DNA of 64,000 nt from Owenia fusiformis (Eukaryota; Annelida; Polychaeta; Sabellida; Oweniidae): positions 9,453,278 to 9,517,277 of the forward strand of contig CAIIXF020000008.1 in assembly GCA_903813345.2 (NCBI GenBank), given 5' to 3'. The notes under the pieces were generated by a model, which was given only the letters and a program-made list of their open reading frames with translations, was not told the origin of the DNA and made no database searches. A program made the position numbers and the translations under genes. Shown piece after piece: positions 1,752 through 61,400 of the stretch. The first letter of the stretch is position 1, and each line of letters opens with the position of its first letter.

Positions 1752-4700
1752 ATGGATAACGAGATAATTTTTCCATTTTTATCAAAAGTTTTACATTTAC
1801 CCAGCTTCAGCTTAATCGTTAATAACTTCATGGAAAGTGTTTTGTCAAAAAAGTCAAGAGAAGAGGTAAGGAAACTGCCTATTTATATTTGAATTTTCTA
1901 CTTGAATTACCAAGGTACCCAGGTACACGATAAGGAATAGTTTTCATGTGTGGGGGAGTATTGGCACAAGAATGATAAAATATAAGAAAAAACGCCAATT
2001 CTACCCCACATTTATGGGGGTACCCACTGGCGGATCCCCTTGGGTGGGCCCAGAAAAAAATCTTCTCAAAGTCCAAGAAATATCAAGGAAAGACCAAATA
2101 TTAAAGAATAAATTTGAAAAATTAGAACTGCCAAAAAAATCAAGTTACAAAATACAAAGTTAAGTTACATTACATTTACTTTACATTGACCAATTCACCA
2201 CTACCAAGCTCATCCATCCGCAGAAAGTTATCCCAAATATTTTACCGATCACTGTTATGTTCACATGTTTCCCAGTTATTCTGGGCTTTATATGTCTGCA
2301 AATTAGAGTATTCTAATTCTATGAGTAAGGATAGTACACTGTAATAGGGTCACGGTTTGTTGAATATCCATGCTGTTTAACATTTGAATGTTAGGGGTTT
2401 TCAGTCCAATCCCTTTAGCCTTTTAGATTTTATAGGGTTCTTCTGACCCCTGGGGTCATCATATTTTGTCATACTTAATTCAAGTCTGAAAGTGGTTATT
2501 TTCTCATAACTTATTTGGGAAATGTTCAGTATAATTTGTGTTATCCACAGTACTTATATTCTGTGCAATGTTAAATGCACCAATACAGGAGAAATCAGTC
2601 AGCTGTGAGCATGCAAAATTCCATTTTCTGAACAATTTTGGGGGTTTTGAAATAAGGATAAGGACATGAGGACACTAAGGATATAATATATGTCTCTCTG
2701 TGTTTCTAGGACTCTAATGCAGACAAGCAAAAAACTGGAAAGCAAAAAGCTAACAAGCAAAAAGCTAACAAGCAAATGGCTGACAGACAAAAGACAGACA
2801 ATAGTTTCATCACAGACCATAGGATTTTCAACCCAGACCTTAAGTACACTGAGGGTGAGGGTGAAAGCCTAGATAAACATATCCAAGAATTAATGCCAAC
2901 TCTTGAAGAGGACGAGGCATATGTTCAGCTCTATAGCAAATACTTCACCCAATTAAAGCAGGGCAGGAGGGCTTCTGAGTACCAGGTATGTACTATTAGA
3001 GTCTCAATGTTACAAACTAATGAAGAATAAAAGTCAATAGAATGCAAAGGGTAGTACAACTTTACTCAATAGATGCGGCTTGTAATAGATAGAGATATAG
3101 GTAATGCTTAAATGTTTTTTGACATATCTCTGCAAAATGCAAAACATTTAATATATTATAATAACCCTACAGTACTACACAAAGCATAAAGATGGCCTTG
3201 GTAAGAGCTCTTAAAAAATTTAGGGGGGTTTACATTACTCGTATCAAGATGTCTTACAAATAATGTTTGAGTTTACACTCGTTTTTTTAAGACATCTAGG
3301 TAGATATCAATGAAAAATGGAAGAGTTATCAGTTCAGTACTGGCTGAAGGGCTGTGAAGCCATAGTTTAAAGTATTGATGGTCCTGTTTCGAGGTCCGTA
3401 TCAAGGAAATATAATAACTCCATAAAACATGAACAAAAACAGAAATGTGTGGTATGGTTTGCAGCTTATAAAAGATAGATAGAAGAAAGATCTACCAAAA
3501 CAAGATAATTTCCTTTGATGATCTGCTTTGAATGCAGTATTTTAATCATCACAATTACACATACATTTAAAACCTGGGTAAGAGCGCTTAGCTAAAACAG
3601 ATGGATTAACACTTGACTTTATGGTCCCAAAACATTTTGACTGAGACATCTTATTCAAGACATCTTAAGAAACTGGATTTACATTACAATCTTAAGACGT
3701 CTTAAAATGTGCATATGCCTAGTATTTTCACTCACAATATTTAATTTGTTTTTCCAGCGTAATGAATTGAAAGAGATGTGGCTAAAAGCACTCAATGATG
3801 AAAGTGATGCAGACAAACAATTCTTGACAGCCAGGCAACTACTCCTCATTCAGACAGAAAAGCTCAATCACGGCACAAACCCAATTTTAACTCATTCCGA
3901 TCTCGAAGAAATTGGCATCAATAGGACCATTGATCTACTAGATGTTGTTAATCCATTTTTCATCCATTGTGTTCCATGGAAACATGTGGCTCAGAAAATT
4001 CAGAGAATTTGGGAAAAGTTGGAAAATGAGAGTCATCTACGAGATGTATTTCAAGAGGAGGTGAGAATAATTTGGGTTCAGACAAAAAAAGATCTGCTTT
4101 TTTGAAAACAGTGATTTTTACCAGAAAAAAATTCTTTGATTTTTACTAGTTTACTATGCGTGTGCCTGTCATCTCAGAATTGAGCAAATGGTAGCAAACG
4201 CGAGTGACAATAAATGGATGCTGATATTCGAAATCCCTTGTTGTTTTGGGGGCTTTTATTTTAACTGTTCTGATATATAAGTATGGATGAAAATATTTCT
4301 ATGTACAGTATTAAAGGAATTATTGTGATTGTATTTGTAGTTGAAAAAGCGATGGATTTTCTATAGAAACAAATCAGAGATGAAGCCTAGATTTTGGAAT
4401 AGAGCAATAGATATGATAGTGACTACCACACCTTACAGCTTTGACTTTCCACCTTATGTGCCGCTTGTTGTAAGTCTTTGTTCCAGTTTTGGCCAATATT
4501 TAATTAGGTTGATGTTTGGAAATATTTATAGATACCATTGCTCTGTATATTGGCAGAGATTAGGATTTGAGATCTTATATTATACATTTATGGCAGCCAT
4601 CTTGGAAAATGGCAGCCGTAAGACGCTATTTTGTTAATTTTTGCTATTACTTCAAAAGCAGTGGAGCGATTTTGTTCTTCTTAAATATGTGATGATTTTT

Positions 4701-6133
4701 ATTAGGAGAAGAAGACAGCTGGTCAGGATATAGGTGACATCAAGCTTTTGAACCCTGCCAATGTCCCCTCCGTCAAGCTGTTTCCTTTGCGTATTAAACC
4801 TGACCAGGACATTACCAAGACATTGATGGGTTTCAAGGAAAAGTTCAAGCTGAATGCTGCTGTTGTATTAACATGTTGTGGAAGTGTCACTGAGGCTTCA
4901 TTGAGGCTTGACTCTCATCCTGATGAGGTAATATACATGATATAAACACCAATATTGAAAATTAAAAGTTAAAAATCCTCTAGATGAAGGAAAAGAAGCT
5001 TCAGAATAATTTCCAACTCTTTCAGCCCAGTGTTTAAAAATTTGCAATGTGATGTTACATTTCCAGTAAAAACAAAAAAATATGAATAAATGGTGCATAC
5101 TTATCATAATATAAGAAATAGAATGATTTTAAAAAACTTTTTTTCAATCGAGCATTTATTCTTTGTTTTTGTTGTCTGTAACTATTAAAACAACACTGTG
5201 GTCATTATCTGAAAAGCTGAGATCTAGTTTGTCAGATCATGTTAATACGTTTGTTAATGGGCAGAAAAAGGACAAACACTATTAAACAGTTCTCGTACCA
5301 TTATTTCCTTTTACTTTTAGGTGAAAACATTTGAGCAGGATTTTGAAATAGTCTCTATGCAAGGAACCTTGTATGGCGACAAAGCACATTTACACATCTC
5401 ATTGAGTGACAAAGAAGGTCATGTGATCAGTGGCCATGTTGATGGGGACCTTACTGTATTTACAACCGCAGAGATTGTTCTCGGTGACTTCTCTCAGGAT
5501 TGGATCATAGAAGAACTGAAGACGAACAAAGATGGCGCTGCAATGCTAAAAACTTCCAAAGAAGTGATTGAATTCCTTCAGTGTGATGACCCTGCTAAAG
5601 CAAAGCATCCAGAGAATCAAGACAACACTAAGGAAGCTGCTGATGAAGCTATTGATGATGTTGAAGAATGGAATGTAATTGATTCTGCTGATCTAGATGA
5701 CGATGTTTATAAACATGAAATAATAGAAGACAAAGAACATAACATTGTGATAACAGTTGGTGGCGTTGGGGGTGAATGGGATGATGCTATTACTCCCAAT
5801 GAGAAGAAAGATGATGACTCTAAAGTGGATGAAGAAATCCATGAACTTAGTAAACCAGATGACGTTGTTATTGTACTTGATGATGATACAAAGATTGATG
5901 TAAACGACACAGATGCTGATAAAGCTGAGAAGAAAGAAGGGATTGGAAAGGAAGATGATGTTAAATGTGATGAAAAGGACAATGCAGGAAATGCTGTCCT
6001 TGATGATGGATCTGTGAGACAGATGCAGATGGGAGATGATATTTATGAAGTTGTTGATGAGCTCCCAGGAGAGGATGGTGTGGGAAGTGGTGAGCCTTTG
6101 GAAAACTATGGTAAGATTCTAAATGAAGTGTAA
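1752..6133 (+). CDS. Gene A: PPC/DUF296 (COG1661-type) protein with acidic tail
   Basis: Six-exon model, all introns phase 0: 1752-1865, 2710-2985, 3758-4060, 4341-4469, 4706-4927, 5321-6133 (TAA); about 618 aa. The start ATG has A at -3 and G at +4. Residues 1-290 are mostly helical-looking and lysine-rich early on, and I do not recognise them. Residues about 295-411 form a PPC/DUF296 domain, known from bacterial COG1661 proteins and plant AHL proteins. It keeps AHLHISLSDKEG, then SGH (His371, His373, His387), the probable metal-binding histidines of the bacterial type. The family is predicted to bind DNA and to trimerise. Residues about 430-618 are strongly Asp/Glu-rich. No AT-hook is seen. 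Gene B downstream is a tandem paralogue. The first exon is the least certain because it lies between inverted-repeat arms. The exact biochemical role is unknown. Confidence 0.82.
4470..4705 (+). repeat. Dispersed repeat fragment in gene A intron 4
   Basis: The intron contains a variant of a motif seen in five tandem units at 54.9-55.4 kb: ATGGCAGCC, then CTATTACTTCAAAAGCAGTG, then GAGCGATTTTGTTC. The copy is partial and diverged. It shows that the dispersed family at 34.7, 54.6 and 60.0 kb has also inserted inside this gene. Confidence 0.55.
4763..5511 (+). other. PPC/DUF296 domain of gene A (two exons)
   Basis: The first half of the domain is in exon 5 (VKLFPLRIKPDQD, then VVLTCCGSVTEASLRL), ending ...HPDE. 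A phase-0 intron (4928-5320) follows. The second half begins VKTFEQDFEIVSMQGTL and runs through HLHISLSDKEG...SGH to TTAEIVLGD. Gene B is interrupted at the equivalent point, also phase 0 and also after a Glu. The middle GGH of the family is SGH here, so the histidine is kept. Confidence 0.85.
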
Positions 6134-7469
6134 CCATTCATAAATTTAAAAAATGATCTTTTGTGCACTTTCAACTCTTAAAGTCCCCGTCTAAAGTTTG
6201 AAAATATTTTTTTATCATTCATTTACTATTTGTCAGGACTTAAAAAGTGATTTTAGGGATTTTTGAACAAAAGATTTTTTTTGAAAAAAAAGTTGTGAGC
6301 ATTTCATTTCTCAAATATTCAAATTTCCCGGCACTTTACAAAAAAAGTTGAAATTTCTTAATCATCAAATATTTCTTAATGCATTTCAAAAAAGATTATC
6401 TTTTTAACACCAATGCAAAGATTGAACAAAAGACACACTATTTCAATAATAAAATGTCATATTTAATGGGCCACTTAAATGTTTTAGCTTATCAAAAATA
6501 TTTTGAAACATTAGTGATGTCACTAAGGTAACAAAAACTTTTTGAAAAAAATTGAATTTTTTTTTTCGATGTCAATCTTTTCTAAATATGCTAGACTTTC
6601 ATAAAAAAAAACAATGTTGATTGTCTAACCAGGTTAAAAGGAAGAATAAATTATGTTTTAGATATCATTGTACCATTGGTTCCTATGAGAACTAAAATTT
6701 TGAAATGCATTTTTCTCAGAACCATTTTCATGCACTGATAAGTTCATTTCTCGCTTGTTTATCAACCGATGTTCTTAATTTTTTCGGCAAAAAACATGGG
6801 AGGATGAATGCTATGCATTGGTATGAATTGTGGCTGATTAGAAGATATGAGTGACCTCTAAAAGTTGGTTTTAAATAAATTCACAAATTTTGGAACAAAA
6901 AGTCTATCAAAAACCACTTTTTGAAATTTTAAAATACATATCACACTTTGATAACATTGGGTAAGACTACAATATAAGCTACATGATTGCCTTAAATGAT
7001 TTCATCTATGGGCTGCTCTGTAATTCGACGTCAGAGAAAATTGGCTTTGTGTTTTTTGCTCGAAAAGAAACAGTAATTTTGTTTATTTTATATGGAGAAA
7101 AGTACTTATTAGCATGGGCCATTCTTTCAAGTTACTCACTAAGTTGGTCATTTTAAAAGACCCATTACATGTATCATATTACATTTTTGTGAAAATTGAA
7201 AGAGAAGTACAATGATTTTGTTGATATTTTATGTGTGAATGTAAGAATGACAAGTTTGGTAATTCATCTTGTATCGTGGCCATTTTGAGAAATGATTTCT
7301 AGCAGTTTTGTCTGACACTTATTAGATCATTCAATGGGATTTGCTGCACCATGGTATTGTTGATCTACTTAATACTAATCATACTGTCAAAATTGTGGAA
7401 TTGAAAACAAAACCAAACAACCACTTTAATGTGCACAATAAAAAGTGTGCAAAACTAAGAGATACTTGA
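6134..7469. other. AT-rich interval between genes A and B
   Basis: There is no coding potential beyond chance. The interval is rich in A and T runs and would contain the 3' UTR of gene A and the promoter of gene B. I see no TATA box or CpG-rich stretch that would fix the gene B start site. Confidence 0.5.
6448..6650 (+). promoter_or_regulatory. Candidate polyadenylation signals of gene A
   Basis: AATAAA hexamers lie at 6448-6453 and 6645-6650, 315 and 512 bases after the gene A stop codon. The sequence is AT-rich, so chance matches are possible. Position and strand fit a short 3' UTR. Confidence 0.4.
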
Positions 7470-10400
7470 ATGGTATCTAGTCCAACAGACAGCTTGGATT
7501 CTGATGTTGACGATTTGAAAAAAATTTCAGATTTTTCCAAGGTGGATGTAGAACGTGTTCCTAAGTATATCTGCCATGCTCTGATCCAGTTCTACTTGGA
7601 TGAAAGTGAGACTTCCCAGTGGTGGGCAGCTAATTTTAATCACATCCAAAGTGCTTTAAACAGCGAGGGTCTCCTTTACAAGCCAGATGCCAAGATCAGA
7701 TACTTGAAACAGGTAAGCTATGTACTGAAAGCCACACAAACTACATTGTGTTACACATTGTTCAGTTAGTGTGAAGCAGGTAAGGCATCCCATGATTCAA
7801 CTGTGAGAAGTTGTCATTTGATTGGTCTAAATGTTGACACTTGTGATCTGTTTTATCCATTGATGCAGGCAAGACTGTCTTGTCTCATGTGTTATAGCAT
7901 GAGTTCAAGTTGGATATGACATTACAAGTGTTTATAGCTGATATAAATCTCCATGTGTCTATGTAGACGTACAGAGGGGTCCGGCGGTATGCATACATTG
8001 ACCTAATTAATGTTATTCAATGCATTATGGGGTACTGTCTGATGCATCATGGATCTGTGGTATTTTGACTGGGGCATTACTGGCCCTTTAAGCTCTGGAT
8101 GAAAATGGCAAAAGGACTTGTGTTATAACTGAATTTTCAGGACCCTGTTTGTTAATTAAGTGGATGCCCAGGATATGGTCACTGAAACCACTGGTGAATC
8201 TCAGACCAGATCCTAATATTGCATGCATACTACAATGGTATGTTACTGGTCTGGGGTGGTCCTCATGTGTGCATATATGACATGGCAGGCCATACCAACA
8301 TGTTTGTCAGGTGGATCTCATTTTTAGGCCAAACCAAGTGCTCTATCTGTTTGGTGGGATTATTCCCTAGGCCAAGCTAGCAATATACTCTGGTTTGTAT
8401 GACACTATTGATCAGGCTTAATCTGATTTTTTATTGCTATCTGCAGCTCTCTCAATCCCGGTTGAGTAAAGAGTGTATATGTAGAGAATCAAGATTGATC
8501 TGGTCATCCATATTATAGTGCAACTTTATACACCAGAGTAACTATTCTGGCCTTTTCAATTTCAATGTCATATTTTATTTGGTTTGTATGATACAAGAAT
8601 ACCGCATAAAGACTATGCCAGCTACATGTCTGTCAGTATTTAATCAGGTAAGAATTCTGGAATTCATGAATGGCAACTTGTTAATTCCTTTACTGATCAG
8701 AAAAAATAAAGGTGGGTCACTCCAGGTCTTTTTGAACAGGTATGTATAAAGGAACTAGAACTATAAATGCCAGATAAAACTATTAATCATCTTCTTATTT
8801 TTACAGGGTTTCACACAGATGACAATGGAAAAGGAAAGCACATTGACTTGATGACTTGGCGTTTAAATTATATCTTTTCTTACTGATAATTTTCAAAAAT
8901 ATTGTAAATTAGATAAATGTTATGATCACATGTATTCAAAGTCTATATTTTCATTGTCTAATATGCTAATGAGTGTGTGTCTGTGCGGTTGGACTAATCT
9001 TGTCATCAGAATTTCAGATGCAAGAGCAGACTACTGCTAAGATTTGATTAGGTTTTCAGGCATGCTGGGTAAATTACTTGGGGCCAATTTGAGATCAATC
9101 ATATGCATGTATTTTAATCCCAGGGGAGTACTCCCATATATTGGCTATAAGGGGACGTGCCGCTAAAGTGGGTCGCCAAAAAATCCCTAGATGTGGGTCC
9201 CATTTTGAAAAAAAACCTAGATATGGGTCCCATTTTGATGAAAAAATCCCTAGAACTGGGTCTACTTTTTGAAAAATCCCCAAACTGGGTACTGTTTTTG
9301 AAAAAGATCGCCGGAAGTGGGTCTTGTTTTTAAAAAAAATAATAATACCATGAAGTTGGTCTATTTTTGATGTGGGTTATTTTTAGAGAAAAAGATCCCT
9401 AGATGTGGGTAGATATTTTGAGTCTCAGCGGCACTCCCCTGTACAAAAATTTGACAAGTACCCCCCCCCCACAAAACAAAATTGAATTCATTATGATTTT
9501 GGCAATAATGAAAGTTTGTATTCGCACACAGATTATGTTTTAATTTGAATGTGTTCCTGAATAATTACCCGCAATGCAATACTCCAGGAGGAAATTTTTA
9601 TACATCTTCTTCTTATTGGTTGTTTTTGCTTACTTTTAACTGAGTTTAATATATTTTATACTTTAATTATATTTTAAATTAATTTTAATTTCTTCAAGAT
9701 AAAACATATTCATAGATTTATTCAGTACTCCATGAAAATATGATCAAAAAGGAAAGTGTGACAATACTCATTTTGAAGTTTTCATGTTTGCAACACATAG
9801 TTCCATACTGTACCCTTCTCTTGAAAGATCATGGCAGAAATCATGTCATATCAGCCTCAAAGTCACTCTGCATATCATTAATGCATCCTATATGGAAGCA
9901 TGTGATGCAGACCCCTTCTGTGTATTGTACAGAATTCATATGCTTTCAGTTGAAAAGTAGATGGCTGGGGACTCAATTCCAAGATGTGAACAATCTAATA
10001 CACCATTTTAAGACATGCTTGTTGATTCAACACAAGCTTGGCCTTGAGGAGGACATCGTCACACTAGAGGAATGCAACAGGGCTATACATAAGGCTATGG
10101 TGGCCAAAGGCAATCATTTTCTGACATTCCCTAATTTGGTAAGACATATGCTCCATCTCATGTTTGTGCTACATTCTACATTTTTCTAAGAACCGTTAAA
10201 ATGAATATTAAACCATGAATCTAAGACTATTTCAACAGTTACACTTATTCTAAATCTTGTAAAATAGTTATGCCGATTCTAAATCTTTGAATTGCTGACT
10301 TGTCCTCTAGACTACTAAAGATGATATTCAATTACAGTGTCATAATTTTTTTTATTATGCACCTCATTAAAATACTCAAATCTGATTGGTTCTTAGATGC

Positions 10401-13400
10401 TTGTAATTTGGCAATACTCTGCTCTTTTCTGAAAACTGCCGGATATTTTTTTAATATCTGACCCTTTCGAGAAAAAGGGTTGGATATTTTTTCAATGTTT
10501 TTGCAACATTCCCACTTCAGAGTTTTATTTCTTAATAACTGGAGTACTACTTAAAGCTGACATCTGAAACTGGCGGAAATTAGAAGAAGAAAATGCACTT
10601 AATCAATCACAATTACCCTTATCATTCAAAAGTTACATGTAATTCTGCAAGAACATCTCGAATTAATAAAGATTAAATTCCCGGGGCAAATATTTTCGTC
10701 CAGTCGTAGCGAATAAACTGGCCGGAAGTCGTCTGAGTTTTGAAAGAAAAAATAAATAAATGTCAAAATAATGTCAACTAAACTGTAAGTACTCCACTTA
10801 ACTTTGATTGGGAGGTGCATAATAAAACAAATAATGGATGATCAGAAGCTGGATATGGCCAGAATACCTATTCGAGAAAAAATATTGGGCTTGGCTGCCG
10901 CCTCGCCCAATATTTTTTCTCGAATAGGTATTCTGCCATATCCAGCTCCTGATCATCCAGTATTTGTTTAATATTGAGTTAGTAGTTTAATATTTCATGA
11001 TTTCATTTCTGATTTTCAGCTTGGAACAGAATATCCCAGAGGTGAGTTCATATTACTAACCTTTATGGTGGTGGGCTAAATGCAAATACAAAGATTTAAG
11101 TTAATGTTAAGTTAAATCAACACGTCTTTAAATTATAAAATAGGTTGGTAAAAAAGTTATAAGTTACAAGTCAGGTGACCCAGGGCTATTTGGAGGCTAT
11201 CCCAGAATTCATCTGGTAAGATGAATGATCTCCATATTTACTCTTATCGTAACCAAATGTGACTTTCTGAAAGAGAAAGTTTATGAAGGAGTGAGGTACA
11301 ACTTGACAAATAAGGTGTTGAAGGACAGGATAATTATTATTTTATATGAGCCTGGCGATATCATTGAAGAGAAATTCGAAACATTACTGCTCAGGAAAGA
11401 TGTTTCATATATTTTTTTACATGTTTTTTTGAGTTTGACAATACTTGCATAATTTCAACTGATCTCTAGTATATTTCTCAGATGTGTTTATGATAACCTT
11501 CTGCTACTCAGTAAGAATTTTCAATTAATTCAGTTCATCCATTCCTGAGAAAATACTTGATGAAAAGTGGTTCACCTTTCTTGGACACCTTATATACTTC
11601 ACTCACAATGTGCTTTGTTTACAATATGTTTACTGTATTTGTTTTGTAGCTGTAAAGGTGCCTCTGTCAAATGAAATAATCAAAGAAAAAGAAAAAACAT
11701 TGCTAGATGATGTGGCACGCCCAACTAAACAGAAACGTTTTCACCGCAATAAGGCATTGCTTGAGAAACTAGATGACAAACAGAGAAAGGAATTCTTAGA
11801 ATCTGTAAGTTATGTTTTCTGCTAGATTTTTAACCAGTTTTTTTCCCCAATTATCTATTTCTCATTCTTGTAGGGACAAAGTCAAAAGATGGGTTTGATA
11901 GTATGTTATGTATAAAAGATCTGTATTCCAAATATAATTAATTGCCTACTATTGTAGCAATACATTCTAATCAAAGTACTCTTACCATAGAGACCAGTTA
12001 TAAAGTAATCTCTGAACAGTTATTTTTCTATGGGAGCCACTGATTGGCTCGGTTGAGTTCAAAGGTTTCTCTTAAACTGAAAGATTGAAGACAATAAGCT
12101 ATCTAAGAAGCTAGGCCAAATCAATGTAAAGTTTATTATCTAATGTGGCATCAATCTGACATCATCCAAAAACGTTTTTTACAAAGCCTACCCCAAGTGG
12201 GTGGAACCCTTAAGTTTTGTTCATTGTCTTTCTCTGTGGTCTTTTCATAAAAACTGAATAAAAAGTGGCGACATATTGTTATGGTCTCCATTTTTTGTGA
12301 CAGCGGATATTGGATGGCGGTTGGTGGATCGCGGTTAGTGATCGGTGTCTGTAACAAATTCTTACAACTTCCATAACTTAACAAATACTGTTTAGATTTG
12401 ACCTTCAATGACCTTGTCGATGTCAAAAAAGATTTTGGTGATTTTGATTTCACTTTCAATGGCCTTAAGGTCAAAAAAGTCAAAGGGGTTTTTTATCAAC
12501 TTGCTTCAAGTTGACCAAATTCTTACAAGTTCTTAAAAGTTCAAATCTGACGATAGATTTGAGAGTTGACCTTTAATGACCTTCTCAAGGTCAAAAGGGA
12601 TTTATAATATTGTGAGCCACTAGGTGGTGACATTTTGTCATGTAATGCCTTGTCTCCATATGAAATGGCCTTCATACTTTTCTAGTGAAATTTTCACTGG
12701 ATTATCCTGTTACCAGCAGTGTTTTGCATTGTCAACTGATCATTGTATTGATCACCTCCACCACCAATCAGAATCAAGGAATTTTATATGAGGTACAATT
12801 AATTTGTAAAACCTTCTCTTGTTTCAGTTGAAACTTGGATTCATGATGCAGTTGGATCATTCTACGAAACCAAAATTGAAGGCAGCAAAAAGAGTGAGAA
12901 ACATGAGGCAAGTGTTCAATGAGATCTCTCTACTGGACTTGAAACCTACAGAATGTATACTTACAACAGCAGAAGTGAACTATTTACATAATTTCATTGA
13001 AAGACAAGCAATTAAGAAGAGGAGGGATCAAAAGGAGCAGAGGAGGGTAAGAAACATATTACTGATATAACTGATACTTTAACCCTGAATTTTTTTTCAC
13101 ACTAAAGATAAAAGAGTTTTTATGCTGATCTCAATCTCTTGAATACCAAACCTTTTTTCATTATTTTTGTTGCTTTTTCATATTTCTATGCATAGTTTTT
13201 ATTTTTGTTACTTTCCGAACATTCCAACTAATATTTTCCCTTTCTTCCCAACGTATGATACTTTACCCAGTCTCAAATGAGTATGAAAATCTCAAACTGG
13301 CTGGTTTTTGGGCATGCTGGACACACTTTTATGTGGCCATTTTTGATTTTTTTGTCACCACCAGAAGTGCTTACATATTGGTAGTCTCCAACTTTTTTTG

Positions 13401-15462
13401 GATAGTGGTTAGTGCTTGGAGTTAGGCATCTGTAGCAATTTGGAATAACTTACAAGATGGTGACATTTTGTCATGTTAATGCCTTGTATGGGTATTATAT
13501 AGCTCACCATATGGCTTGTAATTTGAATAACCAATATTATTATATGTCTTGTTTTTTCCAGTGGAAGGAACCTATGAAGGTGGTGACAGTGCATCTAGAG
13601 GAAGGTTCAGGCATCATTCATGCTCTTAAGAAGATTCAGAATATATTTAGTATGTCAGCCCCCTTTATCCTCTCGTGTACAGGACATGTTGGACAAGGCA
13701 AGCTGAGACTCGCATACAGCCATGAACATTCCGTTGAGGTATGTGTAATGTACTTTTTGTCAGCCTTGATTGAAACTAAAAGCATAAGGGTAGGAGGGAT
13801 GTGAAAACAAAACCCATAAAGCATTATATATGTAATATTGACATTTTTATTTTGTATTTGATAAAGAGTATTACTCATTTATTTTTAGATACCATCAGGT
13901 TATTAAAACATTATGAGATTTTCAATTATCTTGCAGTTATTTTTTCTTTACAGCGCTATGTTGACTTTGCAAAAAGATATGAGATCACAAGCCTAGTGGG
14001 AACTATGGGAAGAGATGGTCTCCATCTTCACACCTCCCTCAAAGATGACTCTGGTGATATACTTGGGGGTCACGTCATGAGTGACAATGACCTGATTGTC
14101 ACTGGGACTGTTGATATTGCCGTCCTTGATTGCTGTAACTTCCAATTCCGTCGTGAACATGATGCGGGAACTGGCTATGAAGAGCTGTTGATTGTGCCCA
14201 AGAAAAGCATGAAGAAAGCAGACCCTGAAATGATTGAAATTATATCTGACACAGACTCTGAGAAAATGGAATCTAAATATTCTTGGTCTAATAGTAAGAA
14301 GCAGAATGTTGCTTTAAAACGGAAACAACAAGAACAACAGGAACAAATGAATAAGAAACGAGCAATACAAGGCCATGATAAACAACCAAGTAAGAAGAAG
14401 AATGAGTCAAATAAGGCTAGAGGTAAATCCAGAGATTCTAGCAGTGATCATCAAAAGAATGAAGAGGATAGAAAAAGGAGAGAAGCAAGAGAGAGACGTC
14501 ATAGATTGAAGGAAGACATAAGGCGTAAAAATGATTCACGAAGTAGGAGCAGAACTGATGATAGGCGCAATTCCAGATCAGCAAGACAGCAAGACAGACG
14601 TGATTGCTATTTGAGTGATCAGCGAAGTCCTAGAGGCCAGAGAAACAGAAAAGACAATGATGCTTCATTGTATTCAGGGTACTCAAATTCTGGGAGTCAT
14701 GGTCAAAGTCGGAATTATAGCACTGATGTTTCGATGGGGTCTGCTGGGTCAATGCAGAATATGGGCATGATGAACCAAAATATGGGCATGATGAACCAAA
14801 GTATGGGCATGAACCAATCTACGGGTGGTATGAATTGGAATATGGGTATGAATCAAGGTGGTATGGGTATGGCCAATCAGATGGGTATGAGCAACCAATT
14901 AATGGGTATGAATAACCAAATAATGGGGATGAATAACCAAACAATGGGAATGAACAACCAAACAATGGGAATGAATAACCAAGTAATGGGTATGAATAAT
15001 CCAATGATGGGGACCAGTTCGAATATGGGGGTGAACCAACCTATAAGCCAAGCCATGGGTTTGATGCAAAGTATAGCTTTGGGGCAACCTGGTAATTCCA
15101 AGGATCTTGCTGAGTCTCTACGTAAAATGGCGGAACAACTTGAGAAAACTTCAGCCCCTCAGCAAACGCCATCAAATATTGGGGGTTCAGTGGGAGGTAT
15201 TGGTACTTCTGGTTTTTGGTCTGGAGGATCCTTAACTGATCAAATGTTTTCCTCTTCTGTTCAAAATTCTTCAACTACTCAAGATTCAATCTCAGGTCAG
15301 AATTTGAATACCAGTAATTCAAGTCAAAATTGGGGTCTCGATTATTCTGGAAATTCAAGTCAAAATATGAGTGGAAACAATACGAGAAAACGTGAGAGAC
15401 GCAGATTCAAGAATCAAAGAAACTCATCTGGGAGTAGGAGAGACGGAGGATTTCCTAACTAA
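7470..15462 (+). CDS. Gene B: PPC/DUF296 protein with RS-like and MGMNNQ-repeat tail
   Basis: Model: 7470-7712, 9950-10138, 11020-11041 (22-nt microexon), 11650-11804, 12828-13046, 13562-13738, 13954-15462 (TAA); about 837 aa. Phases match at every junction, and the microexon carries phase 0 to 1. The start ATG follows an in-frame TGA directly; an acceptor at 7480 or 7492 joining an unseen upstream exon is the alternative. Residues 1-276 are helical and lysine-rich and parallel gene A (LKSRWLG/LKEMWLK; LLIQHKL/LLIQTEKL). Residues about 281-400 form a PPC domain with GLHLHTSLKDDSGDILGGH (His359, His361, His375). Residues about 480-570 are RS/basic, about 600-698 are MGMNNQ repeats, and the C-terminus is RKRERRRFKNQR-like. 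The tail suggests a nuclear, RNA-associated or condensate-forming protein. This is inference. An exon could be missing in the 2.2-kb first intron. Confidence 0.82.
8807..8851 (+). other. Possible alternative terminal exon of gene B
   Basis: A strong acceptor (pyrimidine-rich CTTCTTATTTTTACAG) ends at 8806. Joined to the phase-0 donor at 7712, it reads GFTQMTMEKESTLT and stops at TGA (8849-8851). This would give a short isoform of about 95 aa with no PPC domain. No expression evidence is available, so it could also be an unused acceptor. Confidence 0.3.
9119..9448. repeat. Degenerate tandem repeat element in gene B intron 1
   Basis: Roughly seven diverged units of 35-45 bp carry the motif TCCCTAGATGTGGGTCCCAT followed by A-rich runs. 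They are bounded by GGGGAGTACTCCC / GGGGACGTGCCGC on the left and GCGGCACTCCCC on the right, which are partly inverted. It looks like a non-autonomous repeat of animal genomes. It has no coding content. Confidence 0.65.
10351..10969. repeat. Inverted repeat plus 65-bp-arm palindrome in gene B intron 2
   Basis: TTTATTATGCACCTC at 10351-10365 is repeated inverted at 10812-10826. Next to it is a nearly perfect palindrome: 10826-10890 pairs with 10905-10969 across a 14-nt loop, with GAGAAAAAATATTGGGC meeting its complement. The intron would fold into a long hairpin in pre-mRNA. A similar hairpin lies at 38.6 kb. Confidence 0.85.
12258..12634 (+). mobile_element. ATGTCACCACC-family repeat copy, gene B intron 4
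   Basis: It shares AGTGGCGACATATTGTTATG and TCTGTAACAAATTCTTA with copies at 33.6 and 51.7 kb. It ends ACTAGGTGGTGACATTTTG, complementary to the family's left end ATGTCACCACC. It contains TGACCT half-sites spaced by four bases (12399-12414 and 12567-12582). Confidence 0.7.
13352..13466 (+). mobile_element. Internally deleted ATGTCACCACC-family copy, gene B intron 5
   Basis: It starts TGTCACCACCAGAAGTGC and ends GATGGTGACATTTTG, matching both termini of the family at 51.7 kb. Most of the interior is missing, leaving about 115 bp. This retention of both ends with loss of the middle is typical of MITE derivation. Confidence 0.6.
13574..14140 (+). other. PPC/DUF296 domain of gene B (two exons)
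   Basis: Exon 6 carries MKVVTVHLEEGSGIIHAL and ILSCTGHVGQGKLRLAY and ends HSVE. Exon 7 begins RYVDFAKRYEITSLVGTMG and continues with HLHTSLKDDSGDILGGH. This is a closer match to the bacterial consensus than gene A, with a complete HLH plus GGH set. Confidence 0.9.
14380..14665 (+). other. RS-like basic region of gene B
   Basis: The translated stretch is dominated by Arg, Ser, Lys and Asp/Glu, with SRSRSRT, RRNSRSARQQDRRD and EDRKRREARERRHRLKED. This composition is known from splicing and RNA-binding nuclear proteins, where serines are phosphorylated. The role here is inferred from composition only. Confidence 0.75.
14751..15038 (+). repeat. Coding MGMNNQ repeat of gene B
   Basis: About a dozen in-frame units of 7-8 residues follow the pattern MGMNNQ plus one variable residue (Q, N, I, T, V, L). 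The DNA units are about 21-24 bp (ATGGGAATGAACAACCAA). The unit carries no stop on the complementary strand, which produces long antisense open frames without biological meaning. The Met/Asn/Gln/Gly composition is prion-like. Confidence 0.9.
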
Positions 15463-17054: not shown

Positions 17055-17690
17055 ACATTGAAATAACCCTTTTAATACTGTAATGAACATAACATTTGAA
17101 ATAACCCTTTTTATACTGTATTGAATACAACATTTGAAATAACCCTTTTAATACTGTAATGAACATAACATTTGAAATAACCCTTTTTATACTGTATGAA
17201 TACAACATTTGAAATAACCCTTTTAATACTGTATGAATACAACATTTGAAATAACCCTTTTAATACTGTATGAATACAACATTTGAAATAACCCTTTTAA
17301 TACTGTATGAATACAACATTTGAAATAACCCTTTTTATACTGTATGAATACAACATTTGAAATAACCCTTTTAATACTGTATGAATACAACATTTGAAAT
17401 AACCCTTTTTATACTGTATGAATACAACATTTGAAATAACCCTTTTAATACTGTATGAATACAACATTTGAAATAACCCTTTTAATACTGTATGAATACA
17501 ACATTTGAAATAACCCTTTTTATACTGTATGAATACAACATTTGAAATAACCCTTTTAATACTGTATGAATACAACATTTGAAATAACCCTTTTAATACT
17601 GTATGAATACAACATTTGAAATAACCCTTTTTATACTGTATGAATACAACATTTGAAATAACCCTTTTAATACTGTATGGATACAACATT
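17055..17690. repeat. 37-bp minisatellite, about 17 copies
   Basis: The unit AACATTTGAAATAACCCTTT plus TAATACTGTATGAATAC is repeated about 17 times. Two variants alternate (CCCTTTTAATAC = A, CCCTTTTTATAC = B) in the order A B A B A A A B A B A A B A A B A, so the right part approaches an A-A-B higher-order unit. The first copies carry an extra base (38-40 bp). Confidence 0.92.
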
Positions 17691-17699
17691 TTATGTTTT

Positions 17700-52331: not shown

Positions 52332-52432
52332 TTTGTCATGTTAATGCCTTGTTCTACCTGATGTTTATAACTGTAAGTTCAATTATTTGTTTGTTACATT
52401 ATTAATTTGTTTATTTTGTTATGTATTTACAG

Positions 52433-55400
52433 ATGGATTGAGGAAACCTGGCATGGATAACTCTGGACCAGCCAACCATTATGACAATTCTTCATCTCAG
52501 TCATCAGGATCATCTCCTTTCAGGAATTACCCCCCAGCTGGGTCTCCATCAAAGCCTCATTACCCTTCACAAGCATCTCCTTCAAGGTCTCAGTACGCCC
52601 CAGCCGGGTCCCCCTCCAGGTCTCAATACTCCTTACCTGAGTCACCTTCTAGATCGCAATATCCCCCACCTGAGTCCCCCTCAAGATCACAATATCCCCC
52701 ACCTGAGTCCCCCTCAAGATTGCAGTATCCCACACCTGAATCGCCATCAAGATTGCAAAGCCACTCTGAGCTGCATTCTAAACATCAGTATATTCATCCA
52801 AAGAAGACTTACATTGCACAAATGGGATATAAGTCACCATCTGTCACCACAGAACAGGAGTTAGTAGTTAGTCAGTCTTCACCAAGACCATACCATAAAG
52901 GAAAAGCATTATTTGAAAAGGACAGCATTGACTGGGACAAAGATAAAGGTGTATCCATAGAAACACAGACAATGTGGTCAATCCCTCCTTCCATTTGTTT
53001 AGACTTTGATAAAACACTTGCAACATGTACCCGGCCAGCAGTTTTAAAAACTAGCATTAAACCAGAGTTTAACTCTGAAATTAGTAATTGCTTACACAGT
53101 AGGCCATCTAATGTTGATGCTGGAACGCTAGGGTGTCAGCCATCAAATGATACGGGAAGAGCTATTCCGGCACCAAGCCAGGTATATGATAATTACGCAA
53201 AAGTGGACAATTCACCAAAAGCCCATATGTCCCCGAAAGATCAAAGTCTCCCTGGGAAGATAGTGAATCCAAATAAAAGGCCATCCTTTGAAAATCAAGA
53301 TGAAACTTTATTAAAGCGTAGACTTCGAGAACCTGGTTTCCAAACATGGGACATAGCACAAAAACAGTTACCTCAGAAAAATACATTCAAAGCACCCCAA
53401 ACTCAACCGTCATATGTTGTGCCTACAAATGGCGAAAGCAACCGCAATCTATCGTATACACCTCAACGGGAAGCTTCAGATGACAACAGTAGACAAAGTA
53501 TGAATGATATATCTGAAATATCACTGAAAAAGTTGAGCCCAAGTATTCTTCCTCCTCCCCCTTCCCCCTCAAATTATAACTTCATTCCAGATTCTCCATT
53601 TTATCAACCACCATCCCCATCTACTGAGTTCTTGAATCCAAACTCTCCACTGTCAGCATTAGCAAAAATTTTCACGTCACCCTCTTTGTCACGGCCTCTT
53701 AACATGATGACGCCTTCTCCTCTAAACAGGACAGACTATGAAGATAAACCAATTGACATGTCCCCAAAATCATCAGAATCTCACCTGAATTTTAGCAGAT
53801 CAAATTCCTACCAGGATTTGTACCATAGTGATAAAAATGTACCCAACTACAGACATCAAAGCGAGGGAAGTGCAAGGTATGATCAGGATACTCATACTTT
53901 CAGTGGAAACCCAGCCATGCACCAGCAGGTGAATGTAAACAGAAGCGATTACTCTGAAGCACCAATACAGAGCTCTGATGGCAACTCCAGTCAGTATCTA
54001 CCTCCCAGGCAAATCTCTGAACCTAGAAATCAAGATATGATACCTAAGTGTATAACTCAGTGGAGCGCTGATGGTTCTTTAGATACATCTCAAGAAGTTT
54101 TTGATATCACAGAAGCTCAGAGTCCAGACCAAGGGACAATTTCATCAACATCATGTTCATCTCCACGTAGAGGCCCACAGACCCCTGGAACTGGTGAATT
54201 CAAATTGCCCTATATAAAAACAGAGCCTTCAGACGTAGCAATGCATCCAATTATATCGTCCACACCAGCTGTTCGAAAGACACGTACAGATTCAAAGAAC
54301 TTCATCTGCCAAGTCTGCAATGATATGGCTGCTGGATTCCACTGTGGTGCCTATGTATGCGAGGCATGTAAGGTATGTATATATGAGATTATCTCATGTG
54401 AGGTTAAGGATATCTGGATTATTCCGCAGGGAACATTATAAATCTGCACAAGGCCAAGGTTGAGAATCCCAAAAATTTGATGTTTTGTTGAAAAATGGAG
54501 CAGAGAGGATAGATATAGTTTGTATATGTTCTAAGGACAGGGTGAATTGACCTAATAAATCTGCTCACACATGATTTTTACAGGTTCATAAATGCTTATA
54601 GAATGAATATACTTAAAGTTATTAAGTAGCTCTGGGCATCACACTTATAAGGAGGCCCCATCGGGAGGGCCTCCTATTATTTTTGTAGATATTATTATCC
54701 CATCGAACGAAGTTCGGAGGGATATAAGGAACGCCTCCGTCTGTCCGTCCGTCTCTCTGTTCGTACGTCCGTCTGTCGGGGCAATAACTCAAATACCGTT
54801 GGCCCGATTTTGTTCATATTTTGTATACATATACCCTATGGGGATAGAAGTTCTGCTCGATAAATGGCGGCCTTTACTCATTATTTTACGATTTTTGCTG
54901 TAACTCGAAAAGTAGTGGAGAGATTTTGTTCATATTTGGTATGTGAATACTATAAGCATGGCACACTGTCTAATGACACTTTTGGTAGAAGGTGGCCATT
55001 TTGAAAAATGGTCATTTTAACGTATTTTACTATAACTCGAAAAGTAGTGGAGCAATTCTGTTCATATTTGGTATGTGAATACTATAAGCATGGCACACGG
55101 TCTAATGACACTTTTGGTAGAAGGCGGCCATTTTGAAAAATGGCCATTTTAACGTATTTTACTATAACTCGAAAAGTAGTGGAGCGATTCTGTTCATATT
55201 TGGTATGTGAATACTATAAGCATGGCACACTTTCTAATGACACTTTTGGTAGAAGGCGGCCATTTTTCAAAATGGCCGCCATTTTAACGTTTTTTTACTA
55301 TAACTGGAAAAGTAGTGGAGAGAATTTGTTCATATTTGGTATGTGAATACTATAAGCATGGCACATTGTCTAATGACACTTTTGGTAGAAAGTGGCCATT

Positions 55401-58400
55401 TTGAAAAATGGCTGCTATTTTGCTATATACTTTGTAAAAATACCAGCCATGGCTGTTCATTGGGATTTGCTACACTTTGGCATTGCTGTTGTCTAGTTAT
55501 TATTATTATTAGGAGGCACCATCGGGGGACCTCCTATTAATTTTGTAGATATTAGCATTATTATTATTTATTCTTCCTAACCCCTTTTTTCCTTCTTCCA
55601 ACTTACTACCTTTCAAGTATTTTTACTGTATAGTCCTACAAGGGACATGGGCTGAACTTGGGGAAAGGAATTTTTATCTAGGTCAAGGTCAAAGGTCAAA
55701 ATCTAAATACTTCATTACTTCTTGCGATGAATTAAAATGTAACTAGATATAAGTATTCCCTATAAATTGCTCACTATATGTTCGCATTAATTTTTCATCA
55801 TTTTTCAACTTGCTTCAAATTGACCTAATTTTTATCAAAAATCATCCACAAGATCTCAGGAACTCAAATTTTACCTTACTTTTGACCTTCAACCTTTGGA
55901 CATTTGGTTGGTTGACCTTCGAAAGGTAAAAAAGTTGATTTTTCAAATTGATTTTCTGGATTCAAATATAGTTATATTGAATCACAAAAGACCTACTGAT
56001 GTCTAAAAAAGTCAAATTTGCAAGGTCAGGGTCATCTAACTAAATCACAAACTGTGTTTTCTAAGTTTCTCAAAGTTGATGACTACAAATCAATATATAT
56101 TCATCTAAAGGTTCTTCACATATTAGCAATTGACTATCTATTAAAATTATGCACCAGTTTTGAGATATTAGAACTCAAAAACTGAAAAAGGTCAAACTTC
56201 AAAAGTTTTCAAGACTAAATTTCAACTTGCTTCAAATTGACCAAACTTTTTTTTTAAATCATCTACAAGATCTCAGAAACCAAATCTGACCTTACTTTTG
56301 ACCTCTGACCTTTGGTTGACCTTCAGTGACCTTCGAAGGTAAAAAAGTTACAAATTGTTTTTTTTATTCAAATTTAGGCACATTTAATCACAAAAACCTA
56401 CTGAGGTCTAAAAAAGTAAAATTTGCAAGGTCAAAGGTCAAGATCATAGAAATAAATCACAAACTGTATTTTCTCAAAATTGGTGGCTACAAATCTATAT
56501 TTTTGGATGAAAGTCAGGATATTTGTTCCTCTAAAGATTTTTCATATACAGGGTAGGCCAAAAAAATGCCACTTTTTTTTCAAAATGCTATTATACTTTT
56601 TTAATTTTTGATAAAAAATCATAATTTGCATACCAAATGAAACTTGGGGTTGTTATCTAGCCATGGATCATGAATTATACACTTTTATTTTAATAAAATA
56701 TGTCACCAGCGTCTCTCTTAAACATGTGGGGTGCCATGAGAAATAAGCATAATTTGCAAAATGTTCCTAAACTGATGACCGCCAAACTAATAGCCCTAAT
56801 GCAAACCTCAGTGAGTATAGGGTATGGGAAGGTCTCCAGGAGATTGTATGAAGGCACCCAATCTAAAAAATTGCTCAACTAAAGCTGGCAATTCAGACAT
56901 GTTGAAAAAAATAGCTAACATTTCATTGATACTGCTATATCAGCAAGGCGACTAAAACTAAAATCTATCATCAAATAGGGTGGCGTACCAATTGAACTCG
57001 TTGGACAGAATGTTAGTACAAATGCACTCACCTTCGGTTCGTGCTTTGTACAACATTCTGTCCAACTCGTGCTGAATTTCACCATATTGAATGGCCTATC
57101 ATTATTTATTCCTTAAATATAATAGTATAATCTTTGGTTTTACAAACTTGTATGATATTTGATAAGTGTAAAAGTTGTTTTTGGAGCATTTTTCTATAGC
57201 CATTTTGAAGGGAAAAAAATGATGAAAAAAAGTACAATCTTTTAATTTTAAGTATGACCTGAATCGATTGCAAACTTCATATTTGCACATTTGATGAGAT
57301 AAACCATTTGTGTCGTATTGTGAAATTATTAAGTTTGCAATCGATTCAGGTCATATTGTATTTTTGGTATTTCTGCGATAATCAATGGAAACCAATGGCC
57401 TCTATTGGGATCTGCTGATATCCTCATGTTAAGTCAATGGTGCACAGCCCCATGTAAGTCAATACAACCTTACTGAACGAAATGATCCCTATCTCAGCTT
57501 ATGTGTGTCCAAGCACTTTAATATTTTCCAAAGTATTAAATGACATTTTATTCTTCATGTTACACCTACGAATGATTCATTTTGACTATAGGGATATTTG
57601 CCAATAATTGCACCTTGTCCTTTCTAAGAATACTTCTTGATTTGAAATCTACAACTGATTTGTTTTTGGCCATACTGGATAAATCCTGAAAAACCTTTAT
57701 AGGATCACCTATTGGGGACATGTTATTATTATTATTATATCTTGGTTACCGCCATATTTGGCGAGCAATACCTCATTGGTATATTCCGTGTTTTACGTAT
57801 TTTACACTCGAAGATAGAGCCAGAAACCCCTCCTTGGAGGAGCCCTGTTTTCACAGGAGTCGTGAACCACTCAGTCAAACACCCAGAATTACATAACGCA
57901 CAAACAAACTTGTCTGAACCGGGAATCGAACCCGGGGCCAAGCGATATTGGTAACCTTGACTCTCTCTGCCACTGAGCCATAGCGGGTGTTGTACATGCA
58001 TACATGTGTCCTTGACTTTAAAATAAGCTGAGATTAGCATTCTATTTTCATCCCAGAAAACATATGATAAGGTATTGATATTAAATATATATTTTTTTTT
58101 TTTTTTCATTTCTCATTTATTCCAAATATAACATAAAATACATTACAATATTATTGCCTACGTTTTTCAACATTGTCGGCAATATACAAAACATATAAAA
58201 ATGGAAACAATGAAAATACAATAGATAAGGTACATAATATTAATGGCAGGGAATGTTAGAGGCTTTCGGGGGGGGGTTAATCTAAAATATCAAGAGCCTG
58301 GCAGATGTAATGGCTAACTATATGAATAATTTGTTCATTATCAGTTACAGTGAGATTTCTGTCTCCAAATAATAAAAATTGAATTTTTTCATGAGAGTTT

Positions 58401-61400
58401 AAATTTTGGAAACGATTGAAAAATCCTAAGGTTTTTAGTCCTGCTAGGAGAGTGCATCTTTCTTGTTGCAGCAGAGGGCAGTTTAATAAAAAGTGATGCG
58501 TTGTTTGTTGTATGTCACCACATACGCAGAAAGGGTCATTTACTGTCACAAAGTTATGGGAATATAACTGTGCTTTTAGAATCAGTCCAGCTCTAAATCT
58601 ATTGAACAGAATTTCAATTTTCCTTGGCATTGTCATATTCATTTTAGTAGTGGATACTCTGGAGTCAGGGCTCATATTTCCTCTTACTAACCTTTTAAAT
58701 CTAGATATTGGTTGGCCTTTCCTGTCCTCATATGGTATGTCATCCCACAGGGTCATAGCCCTGATAATGGTTGACTTTTTGAACGAATTACTGATTGGAA
58801 AGGGTATTCTATAATGCCTTGGTTGTCTTAGGGGCCGATTTGGAATATTCTCGTATGAACTAACTAAATCACAAATGAAAGGAGGGAAACAATGGTATCT
58901 AGTCTTGAAAGCAAAAATTTTAAGATGTTCTTCTCTCCTGGAAGCTAACGTTTTCCAGTTGAGTAATGATAAAACTTTCGATGTGTTTGAACCGTGTATT
59001 GCTCCTGACACATGGCAAGCTGCTTGATAATGAAGTCTATCCAATGTCAATAGTTTTGAAGTTGATGCCTTATCATATATTGTATCACAGTAGTCGAAAT
59101 GTGGTAGTATAAATGAATTATATATATTCTCTAGGTATTTACTGTTTAGCATTTTAGTTAACTTTTTCAATGGTCTCATGAGAGAGATTACTCTCTCTAT
59201 GAGTTGGTCAACATGTGAATTAAAGTTTAGATTTTGATCAAGTACTAAGCCCAGGTGTTTGTGTTTGGTGCAACTAGGAATCACATCTCCTCCTAGTTTT
59301 AAAGGGACTGGCTCTTGTAATAGTCTTCTATTAAATATATCTGACGTCTGATTTTATTTGGATAGATTGTAAAATAACATGGCATTTGAATCAGCTTGCA
59401 AAAACATCATTGAAGGACTCTTTTCATAAAATGGGAAGTAGAAATATCAAACAAATTGAAGTCAAAACCTCTAAATAACTCCTAATTTTTGTGTCATGTG
59501 ACCCAGATTTGAACAATTACACATGTGGTAAGAAATTTTAAGGTGGTAGTTAAAGGTGCATGTGCAGTATGGCAAGTGATTTTAGATGGTCATATCTTTC
59601 ACCATGAGTACTTTCTGGGCATAAATACAGTAGTTTTTATTAAAACAATATGTTTTCTTTCAAGTGAAGTCCCCATGATGATAAAAATATCAATCGAACA
59701 ATTTGAAAAAATTTATAAATAGGGACCCCACATCAACATTTTTTCCAATATGTTGAACTTATTTGCTCAAAAGAGGATCTTCTTTTTTCTGATTTTTATT
59801 GCATGAAAACATTATTCAACAAGGGGTCTAAAACATCTTCAAAAGTATAATGGTATTGAAAGTCTAGTTTTGAAGATATCAATGTTCGATGACCAAAATC
59901 ATGCTGAAAACAATGGATAGCATGAGTTTTCCCTATGGGAAAATAACATGGGAAATGTGGTTTTTAACTTTATCGCATTTCAATACCCATCCCCTTTTCA
60001 GAAGTTATTATCCCAACGAACGAAGTTCTGTAGGGATATAGTGAAGCCCTCCGTCCATCTGTCCATCAGTCAGTCAGTCAGTCAGTCCGTACGTCTGTCC
60101 GGAAGATAACTCGAATACTAGTCGACAGATTTTCTTCATATTTGCTGGAAAGATGTATATTGATGAAAAGTTTTATGCAAAAAAAAATTTTTTCAAGATG
60201 GCCACCAGTTTAAAAATAGCGGGAATTTTCTGCAAAAATCTTATGTTTTTCATTTTAAACCAAAATAATAAATATTATTATTTGAAATTTTGGTAGTATA
60301 TTTACAACATCTATCTATTTCACATATATCCTGGGTTTTTCATCCTGATCCTCAGGGGCCGTAAATGGGGGATTGGGAAAACAGGAATTTGCGTTAATTT
60401 TGAGATATTTTTGAAGTATAGCTTTATTATACTCAAATGAAAAGCAATTTAGAGTAGATTGCAAATATTGTAACGTTTTTCACAACTATCGCATTGTTTT
60501 TCTGATTTGCGCCTCTGAAAATTCAAAATGGCTGACTAGAGCAGAAATTCACCATTACTTAGAGTTATCTTGAAAGTATGGTTACATGATACTGCAATGA
60601 TTTAAAAATTTTATTGAAGGTAAGAGTAGATGGTAAATATTACATATGTACAATGTGACTGTACAGATTGATGATTTATATAGTGTTCGTTGGGATTTGC
60701 TACTTCGTGGAGTTGCCATTTTCTAGTTAATATAGTGCTGAAGAAACTTGAGAAAAACAAGATCCTCTTTTTAGAAAATAAGCCTTGCATTTTTAAAAAA
60801 GTGACAAGGTGGGGTCCTAATCCATAATTTTTCAGAGAGTGGGATTGATATTTTGATATCATGGGGACGTAACTTTAAAGAAAACATATTGTTTTAATAA
60901 AAAACACTTTATTTATACCCAGAAAATACTCATTGTGAAAGATATGACTGTCAAAAATCACTTGCCATACTGCACATGGACCTTTACAAATGGTAACCAT
61001 TTTTAATGAAAAGAGTAATTTTTGATATACAGTGCATATCAAATAAAACGCAACAGATTGTTATCTCGGAAAAGCACAAAACCAGTGATAACAGCATTGA
61101 TTTCATTCAATGTACCATAAAGCCACGTGTCTCCTCTTTACAATGATATATCATTCATTGATATTTGATCATGGTTGAGCAAGTAATCATTCCATTTGCA
61201 AAGTGGGCCAAAATTAGCTTGGGACCAAGTTATAAAAATCTCAAAAGTCAGTGTACGGAGCCCGGTGCAATATTGGAAGAAAATATAGAACCAATACTGA
61301 CTGCATCCTTTTCATTCAATGTACCAAAAAGCCAAATTACTCCTCTTTGCAATGGAATATCATTCATTCACAGGGAGTCATGATTGGCTGAATAATCATT

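Follow-up and report, generated by a model that had tools for sequence, protein, structure and literature searches.

What is known of the proteins that this locus most closely resembles? The PPC family takes its name from "plants and prokaryotes conserved", and nearly all work on the domain concerns bacteria and plants. In the open full-text literature, at the level of titles, abstract openings and passages, no animal PPC protein appears under that name. Animal PPC entries already exist in the protein databases; the presence of the domain in animals is therefore probably not new. Short fish proteins labelled GlmU-like are probably PPC-domain proteins under a misleading database name. One such protein, the "bifunctional protein GlmU-like" G3PDP5, is listed in a liver proteomics table under "metabolic pathway" with a theoretical mass of 15.7 kDa (PMC6308192). 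Literature leads from Hydra and MAST have DUF2961, not DUF296, in the passages concerned, and a glutaredoxin lead has a bacterial subject in its relevant passage; these were set aside. Passages of two papers report trimers for prokaryotic PPC proteins and describe the plant AHL proteins as forming homo- or heterotrimers through the PPC domain and binding other factors (PMC4209074, PMC8096963). In LmiA, residues His85, His87 and His101 apparently form a zinc site, according to a passage by the authors of that study (PMC7667037).

The window analyzed here is a 64,000-nucleotide stretch of Owenia fusiformis DNA on contig 8 of an assembly of 498 Mb in 525 contigs, with a GC fraction ranging from 0.26 to 0.40 in 2-kb steps. 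The genome had been taken for that of an animal, and since a whole-genome family search returns 42 Wnt and 34 innexin matches, it is one. COX1 found no match genome-wide at E 0.001, and the mitochondrial genome may for this reason lie outside the assembly; a missing match need not mean absence. Searches for mollusc haemocyanin and cuticle families were likewise negative, with the same reservation. Two neighboring genes had been proposed near the start of the window, and both read as spliced. Hand-built from open frames and splice signals, gene 1 comprises six exons at 1752-6133 (+) and encodes 618 residues, and gene 2 comprises seven exons at 7470-15462 (+) and encodes 837 residues (Table 1). 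The genes lie on the same strand with their coding parts 1.3 kb apart. GT-AG ends are found at 11 of 11 introns, phase 0 at 10 of 11, and every exon join keeps the frame open. AATAAA/ATTAAA words follow both genes, four of them between the genes (the first at 6448) and three downstream of gene 2 (15484, 15528 and 15580).

Table 1. Exons of the two hand-built gene models, in window coordinates
Exon	Position	Strand	Content	Supporting features
Gene 1 exon 1	1752..1865	+	38 codons; start uncertain	Open frame, GT donor
Gene 1 exon 2	2710..2985	+	92 codons	AG/GT ends, phase 0
Gene 1 exon 3	3758..4060	+	101 codons, N-terminal region	AG/GT ends, phase 0
Gene 1 exon 4	4341..4469	+	43 codons, N-terminal region	AG/GT ends, phase 0
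Gene 1 exon 5	4706..4927	+	74 codons, PPC first half, ends in SHPDE	PF03479 match of spliced protein
Gene 1 exon 6	5321..6133	+	PPC second half with HLH...GH, acidic tail, stop	PF03479 exon match
Gene 2 exon 1	7470..7712	+	81 codons, right after in-frame TGA	Open frame, GT donor
Gene 2 exon 2	9950..10138	+	63 codons, starts LKSRW	AG/GT ends, phase 0
Gene 2 exon 3	11020..11041	+	22 nt, doubtful	AG/GT ends and frame
Gene 2 exon 4	11650..11804	+	Entered in phase 1	
Gene 2 exon 5	12828..13046	+	73 codons, starts LKLGF, basic	AG/GT ends, phase 0
Gene 2 exon 6	13562..13738	+	59 codons, PPC first half, ends in HSVE	PF03479 match of spliced protein
Gene 2 exon 7	13954..15462	+	PPC second half with HLH...GH	PF03479 exon match

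Several features of the surrounding DNA deserve mention. A second in-frame ATG is available to gene 1 at 1695, and its first exon is flanked by inverted-repeat arms (1554-1594 and 1918-1958, 85%); enclosed in this way, the exon may be part of a mobile element or border on one. At 10822-10972, in the second intron of gene 2, one inverted-repeat pair is nested in another (complementarity 92% and 94%), and together they make up one long palindrome resembling a small mobile element of the non-autonomous kind. A short way beyond gene 2, at 17058-17691, a 37-bp unit is repeated in tandem (17.1 copies, 95% matches); as 37 is no multiple of 3 and all frames are open, the array carries a 147-codon open frame on the minus strand. 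Farther along, a large Pro/Ser-rich open frame occupies 52345-54438 (+), and its end encodes the initial part of a zinc finger of nuclear-receptor type (FICQVCNDMAAGFHCGAYVCEACK). This part matches zf-C4 profile positions 2-25 at E 0.0022 with 18.8 bits, below the 21.1 cut-off, and a simple plus-strand motif scan beyond 54000 found no remainder of the finger. Lastly, a 358-codon open frame at 58280-59353 (-) looks like the C-terminal portion of a polyprotein from a non-LTR retrotransposon; Pfam gives no match for it at E 0.1.

Do both genes encode the PPC domain, as an earlier note on this DNA had claimed? Against the PF03479 profile the gene 1 protein scores 86 bits (E 3e-24, residues 300-406 against positions 3-116) and the gene 2 protein scores 57.6 bits (E 2e-15, residues 283-392 against positions 2-112). 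Both scores exceed the Pfam cut-off of 25, both alignments cover nearly all of the 117 profile positions, and PF03479 is the sole Pfam family in either protein at E up to 1. When the whole genome is searched with PF03479, two exons match, one per gene, and none elsewhere; a protein query with the gene 2 domain recovers from the genome both exons that encode it, plus one gene 1 exon. Identity between the two domains is 34% (39 of 114 positions, E 6e-15 by BLAST). The solved structures 2hx0, 2nmu and 2p6y match both proteins by sequence and 2dt4 does so weakly, with E values of 1.2e-15 for gene 1 against 2hx0 and 4.1e-10 for gene 2 against 2p6y. The locus almost certainly holds two animal PPC-domain genes.

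The residues that characterize the domain are largely in place. The histidines of the HLH and GH motifs, which the earlier note had listed as kept, are found at positions 371, 373 and 387 in gene 1 and at positions 359, 361 and 375 in gene 2, and all 24 prokaryotic rows, which comprise 23 loci and a PDB stretch, likewise have His at the three equivalent columns. Their spacing is that of LmiA His85, His87 and His101, and by this likeness they could form a metal site in both window proteins. Conservation reaches 80% or more of the prokaryotic rows at 21 columns, of which 15 are retained by gene 1 and 16 by gene 2. Gene 1 deviates at six, for example with Ser385 where GGH has its first Gly and with Glu413 in place of an Arg of the C-terminal segment; gene 2 deviates at five, among them Tyr344 for Phe, Asp389 for Glu, and His287 for Arg. 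The C-terminal segment altered in gene 1 at Glu413 is retained in gene 2 (FRREHDAGTGYEELLI).

The N-terminal regions present a different picture. A 280-residue module common to both proteins had been proposed, and this proposal is not borne out by sequence: 215 of 500 shuffles score at least as high as the best local alignment between the two regions. In structure, the regions may still have a fold in common. Twelve anchored local comparisons gave z values from -0.79 to 2.79, and the two best of them (shuffle fractions 0.02 and 0.029) both concern pairs that had not been proposed, one lying within gene 1. Divided into five pieces and searched against Pfam with E values allowed up to 10, the N-termini give 0.017 as the best E (16.4 bits, where the cut-off is 27.8); against PDB sequences the best E values are 0.13 for gene 2 and 0.3 for gene 1 (182 residues), none of them convincing. 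Assignment of the LK..W segments as Myb/SANT-like or trihelix likewise finds no support in the Pfam and PDB scans. In the genome, a 144-residue N-terminal query from gene 1 finds its own two exons alone at E up to 1, and a 125-residue query from gene 2 finds its own two exons and a match on contig 3 that is no better than chance (E 0.33, one internal stop). Because the Pfam and PDB matches are unconvincing, the N-terminal regions may possibly represent a new domain. N-termini that resemble neither each other nor known families would also be expected if the gene models were partly wrong, with some N-terminal exons belonging to other genes or not spliced to the PPC exons. The repeat context of gene 1 exon 1 and the doubtful 22-nt exon of gene 2, which can be skipped in frame if the acceptor is the AG ending at 11657, lend themselves to the same view. 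Set against this are the phase 0 of all introns except one, the canonical ends, and the frames that stay open across all joins, and we regard such an error as quite unlikely.

How are the two genes related? The intron within the domain follows Glu348 in gene 1 (between SHPDE and VKTF) and Glu335 in gene 2 (between HSVE and RYVDF). Both are in phase 0 and fall in the same gapped loop, one or two codons apart depending on the alignment. Hence the claim that a mid-domain intron occupies about the same place in both genes holds, and on moderate evidence this would be a shared ancestral intron. Two further introns had been described as equivalent, and here the claims fare less well. The intron said to precede LK..W in both genes lies directly before LK in gene 2; in gene 1, three codons separate the two. 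Intron flanks were compared for 16 pairs at five window sizes, with raw p values; comparisons ending at gene 2 residue 276 were set aside because they run off the N-terminal segment and their p values are not comparable. The proposed pair of gene 1 residue 130 and gene 2 residue 81 never falls below p 0.05 at any of the five sizes. The proposed pair 231/203, before LK....(K/H)..KP(R/K), does so in the +/-10 window only, the narrowest two-sided one (raw p 0.0031), and in that window the unproposed pair 231/81 does better (raw p 0.001). By these values the gene 1 site before LKKRW is more like the LKSRW site of gene 2 than its proposed LKLGF partner. Since the N-termini have no detectable sequence similarity, sharing of the two N-terminal introns is unproven.

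Local duplication, also claimed earlier, is the simplest reading of the locus because the genes are adjacent, share a strand and an intron, and have no third match in the genome; what this reading does not receive is branch support in a tree. We propose that gene 1 and gene 2 are probably paralogues, which arose when an ancestor that already had introns was duplicated locally, and that they have probably diverged strongly outside the PPC domain since. Relatives for the tree came from genome contigs, where a single-protein query found none and a two-sequence alignment query found 23 prokaryotic loci, which were picked by their pattern and are no fair sample of prokaryotes; viral contigs yielded no PPC relatives. 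The resulting tree has 26 rows (the two window domains, the 23 loci cut to 150 residues, and one PDB stretch), with archaeal, plant and other animal rows missing. In it the two window domains occupy separate positions, each on a long branch (3.55 and 3.88) and with no supported neighbor. Two domains left ungrouped in this way, together with N-termini that lack detectable similarity, would fit a locus in which adjacency arose by another route, for example if two PPC domains had been fused to N-terminal genes of unrelated origin. A tree constrained to unite the domains is worse by 1.40 log-likelihood units (p-AU 0.368), so that their joint grouping, absent from the best tree, is not rejected; the common domain intron, the adjacency and the common strand also tell against such a route, and we find it decidedly improbable.

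The same comparison bears on the origin of the domain. The best prokaryotic match of gene 1 is a Bdellovibrio protein, with 45% identity in the best segment and 38% in the alignment behind the tree (136 columns), which exceeds the identity of gene 1 to gene 2 by BLAST. The PPC domain might thus have been acquired from a bacterium, with introns gained later, instead of being inherited from a PPC gene of early eukaryotes. The very long branches, attached to no supported neighbor in a tree without plant or further animal rows, make this unlikely, as do the many introns of both genes and the domain intron they have in common. Given these introns, any transfer must be old.

The tails of the paralogues differ in character. 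Behind the PPC domain, exon 7 of gene 2 encodes a SUMO-binding-like motif, a basic stretch and an M/N/Q/G-rich tail that runs to the stop codon. Residues 431-837 have a Q/N/S/G/M fraction of 0.56 and a net charge of +25, and the protein contains the basic clusters KRVR, KKRR and KRER. The motif IEIISDTDSE, of the SUMO-interacting type, lies at residue 429, shortly behind the PPC domain; at least one such motif occurs in 8 of 2000 tail shuffles, in a test made after the motif had been spotted. We consider it a candidate SUMO-interacting motif, specific to gene 2 and of value as a lead. Reading the gene 2 tail as an RS domain was rejected, as RS dipeptides number 10 against 8.8 expected and 37% of shuffles reach this count. 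In the gene 1 tail (residues 431-618), Asp and Glu make up 61 of 188 residues, for a net charge of -43. The rule applied to gene 2 finds no SUMO-type motif in gene 1; VVIVLDDD fails the rule, and 434 of 2000 shuffles of the acidic tail yield a motif anyway. Basic clusters combined with a low-complexity tail are usual in nuclear proteins. The gene 1 protein offers just one basic cluster of the kind looked for, and a nuclear location is for that reason unsupported for it.

What might such a pair of proteins do? We tentatively propose that the PPC domains of both genes would trimerize like those of their prokaryotic and plant relatives, that mixed trimers of the two products could form, and that the trimer would serve as a scaffold gathering other nuclear proteins. 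The gene 2 product, with its basic clusters, its M/N/Q/G-rich low-complexity tail and its IEIISDTDSE motif, would be the nuclear, assembly-forming member, and the gene 1 product would act as an acidic-tailed partner or modulator. This mechanism is inferred, and in our estimation it has somewhat less than an even chance of being right. The RGR and GRP cores of the plant AT-hook are found in neither protein, as the earlier note had stated, and the absence of this core, the DNA-binding part of the plant AHL proteins, weighs against the mechanism. So do the lone basic cluster of gene 1 and its lack of a SUMO-type motif, the conserved columns that each protein fails, and the RS dipeptide count of gene 2, which does not rise above composition. 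The missing AT-hook core would suit a pair of non-nuclear proteins with metal-binding or metabolic roles and a PPC domain that takes no part in gene regulation, as would the conserved histidine site and the filing of the sole animal lead, the fish GlmU-like protein, under "metabolic pathway" in the table that mentions it (PMC6308192). The basic clusters and low-complexity tail of gene 2 speak against this alternative, which strikes us as rather unlikely. The nuclear trimer scaffold could be carried one step further: tandem partners with acidic and basic low-complexity tails might use mixed PPC trimers to join one another in nuclear condensates, as an AT-hook-free counterpart of the plant AHL complexes with new N-terminal domains. 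We offer this extension as a long shot.

The multidomain architecture and the pairing, not the domain in animals, are probably the undescribed part of this system. Two divergent animal copies with tails of opposite charge provide a natural contrast for the role of a PPC domain that has no plant DNA-binding hook, and the gene pair makes a little-studied animal branch of the family testable.

Finally, how do the window proteins compare with described members of the family? Like the prokaryotic PPC/DUF296 proteins (2hx0, 2p6y, 2dt4, which is PH0802, and LmiA of EHEC), both contain a nearly full-length domain with three equally spaced histidines, and EI and GT motifs are common to all. The open frames of the 23 prokaryotic loci are 93-162 residues long, whereas the window genes, at 618 and 837 residues, have introns, N-terminal regions and long tails. 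The fish protein G3PDP5 is also far smaller, its listed theoretical mass of 15.7 kDa being that of a single domain (PMC6308192). As in the plant AHL proteins, the PPC domain lies C-terminal to another region of a eukaryotic protein. Where the AHL proteins have the six-residue motif GRFEIL, as given in a passage on these proteins (PMC8096963), gene 1 would read QDFEIV and gene 2 KRYEIT, in a placement made by way of the prokaryotic rows. Unlike the AHL proteins, both window proteins combine the domain with a different N-terminal region and a very long tail, and dispense with the AT-hook core.
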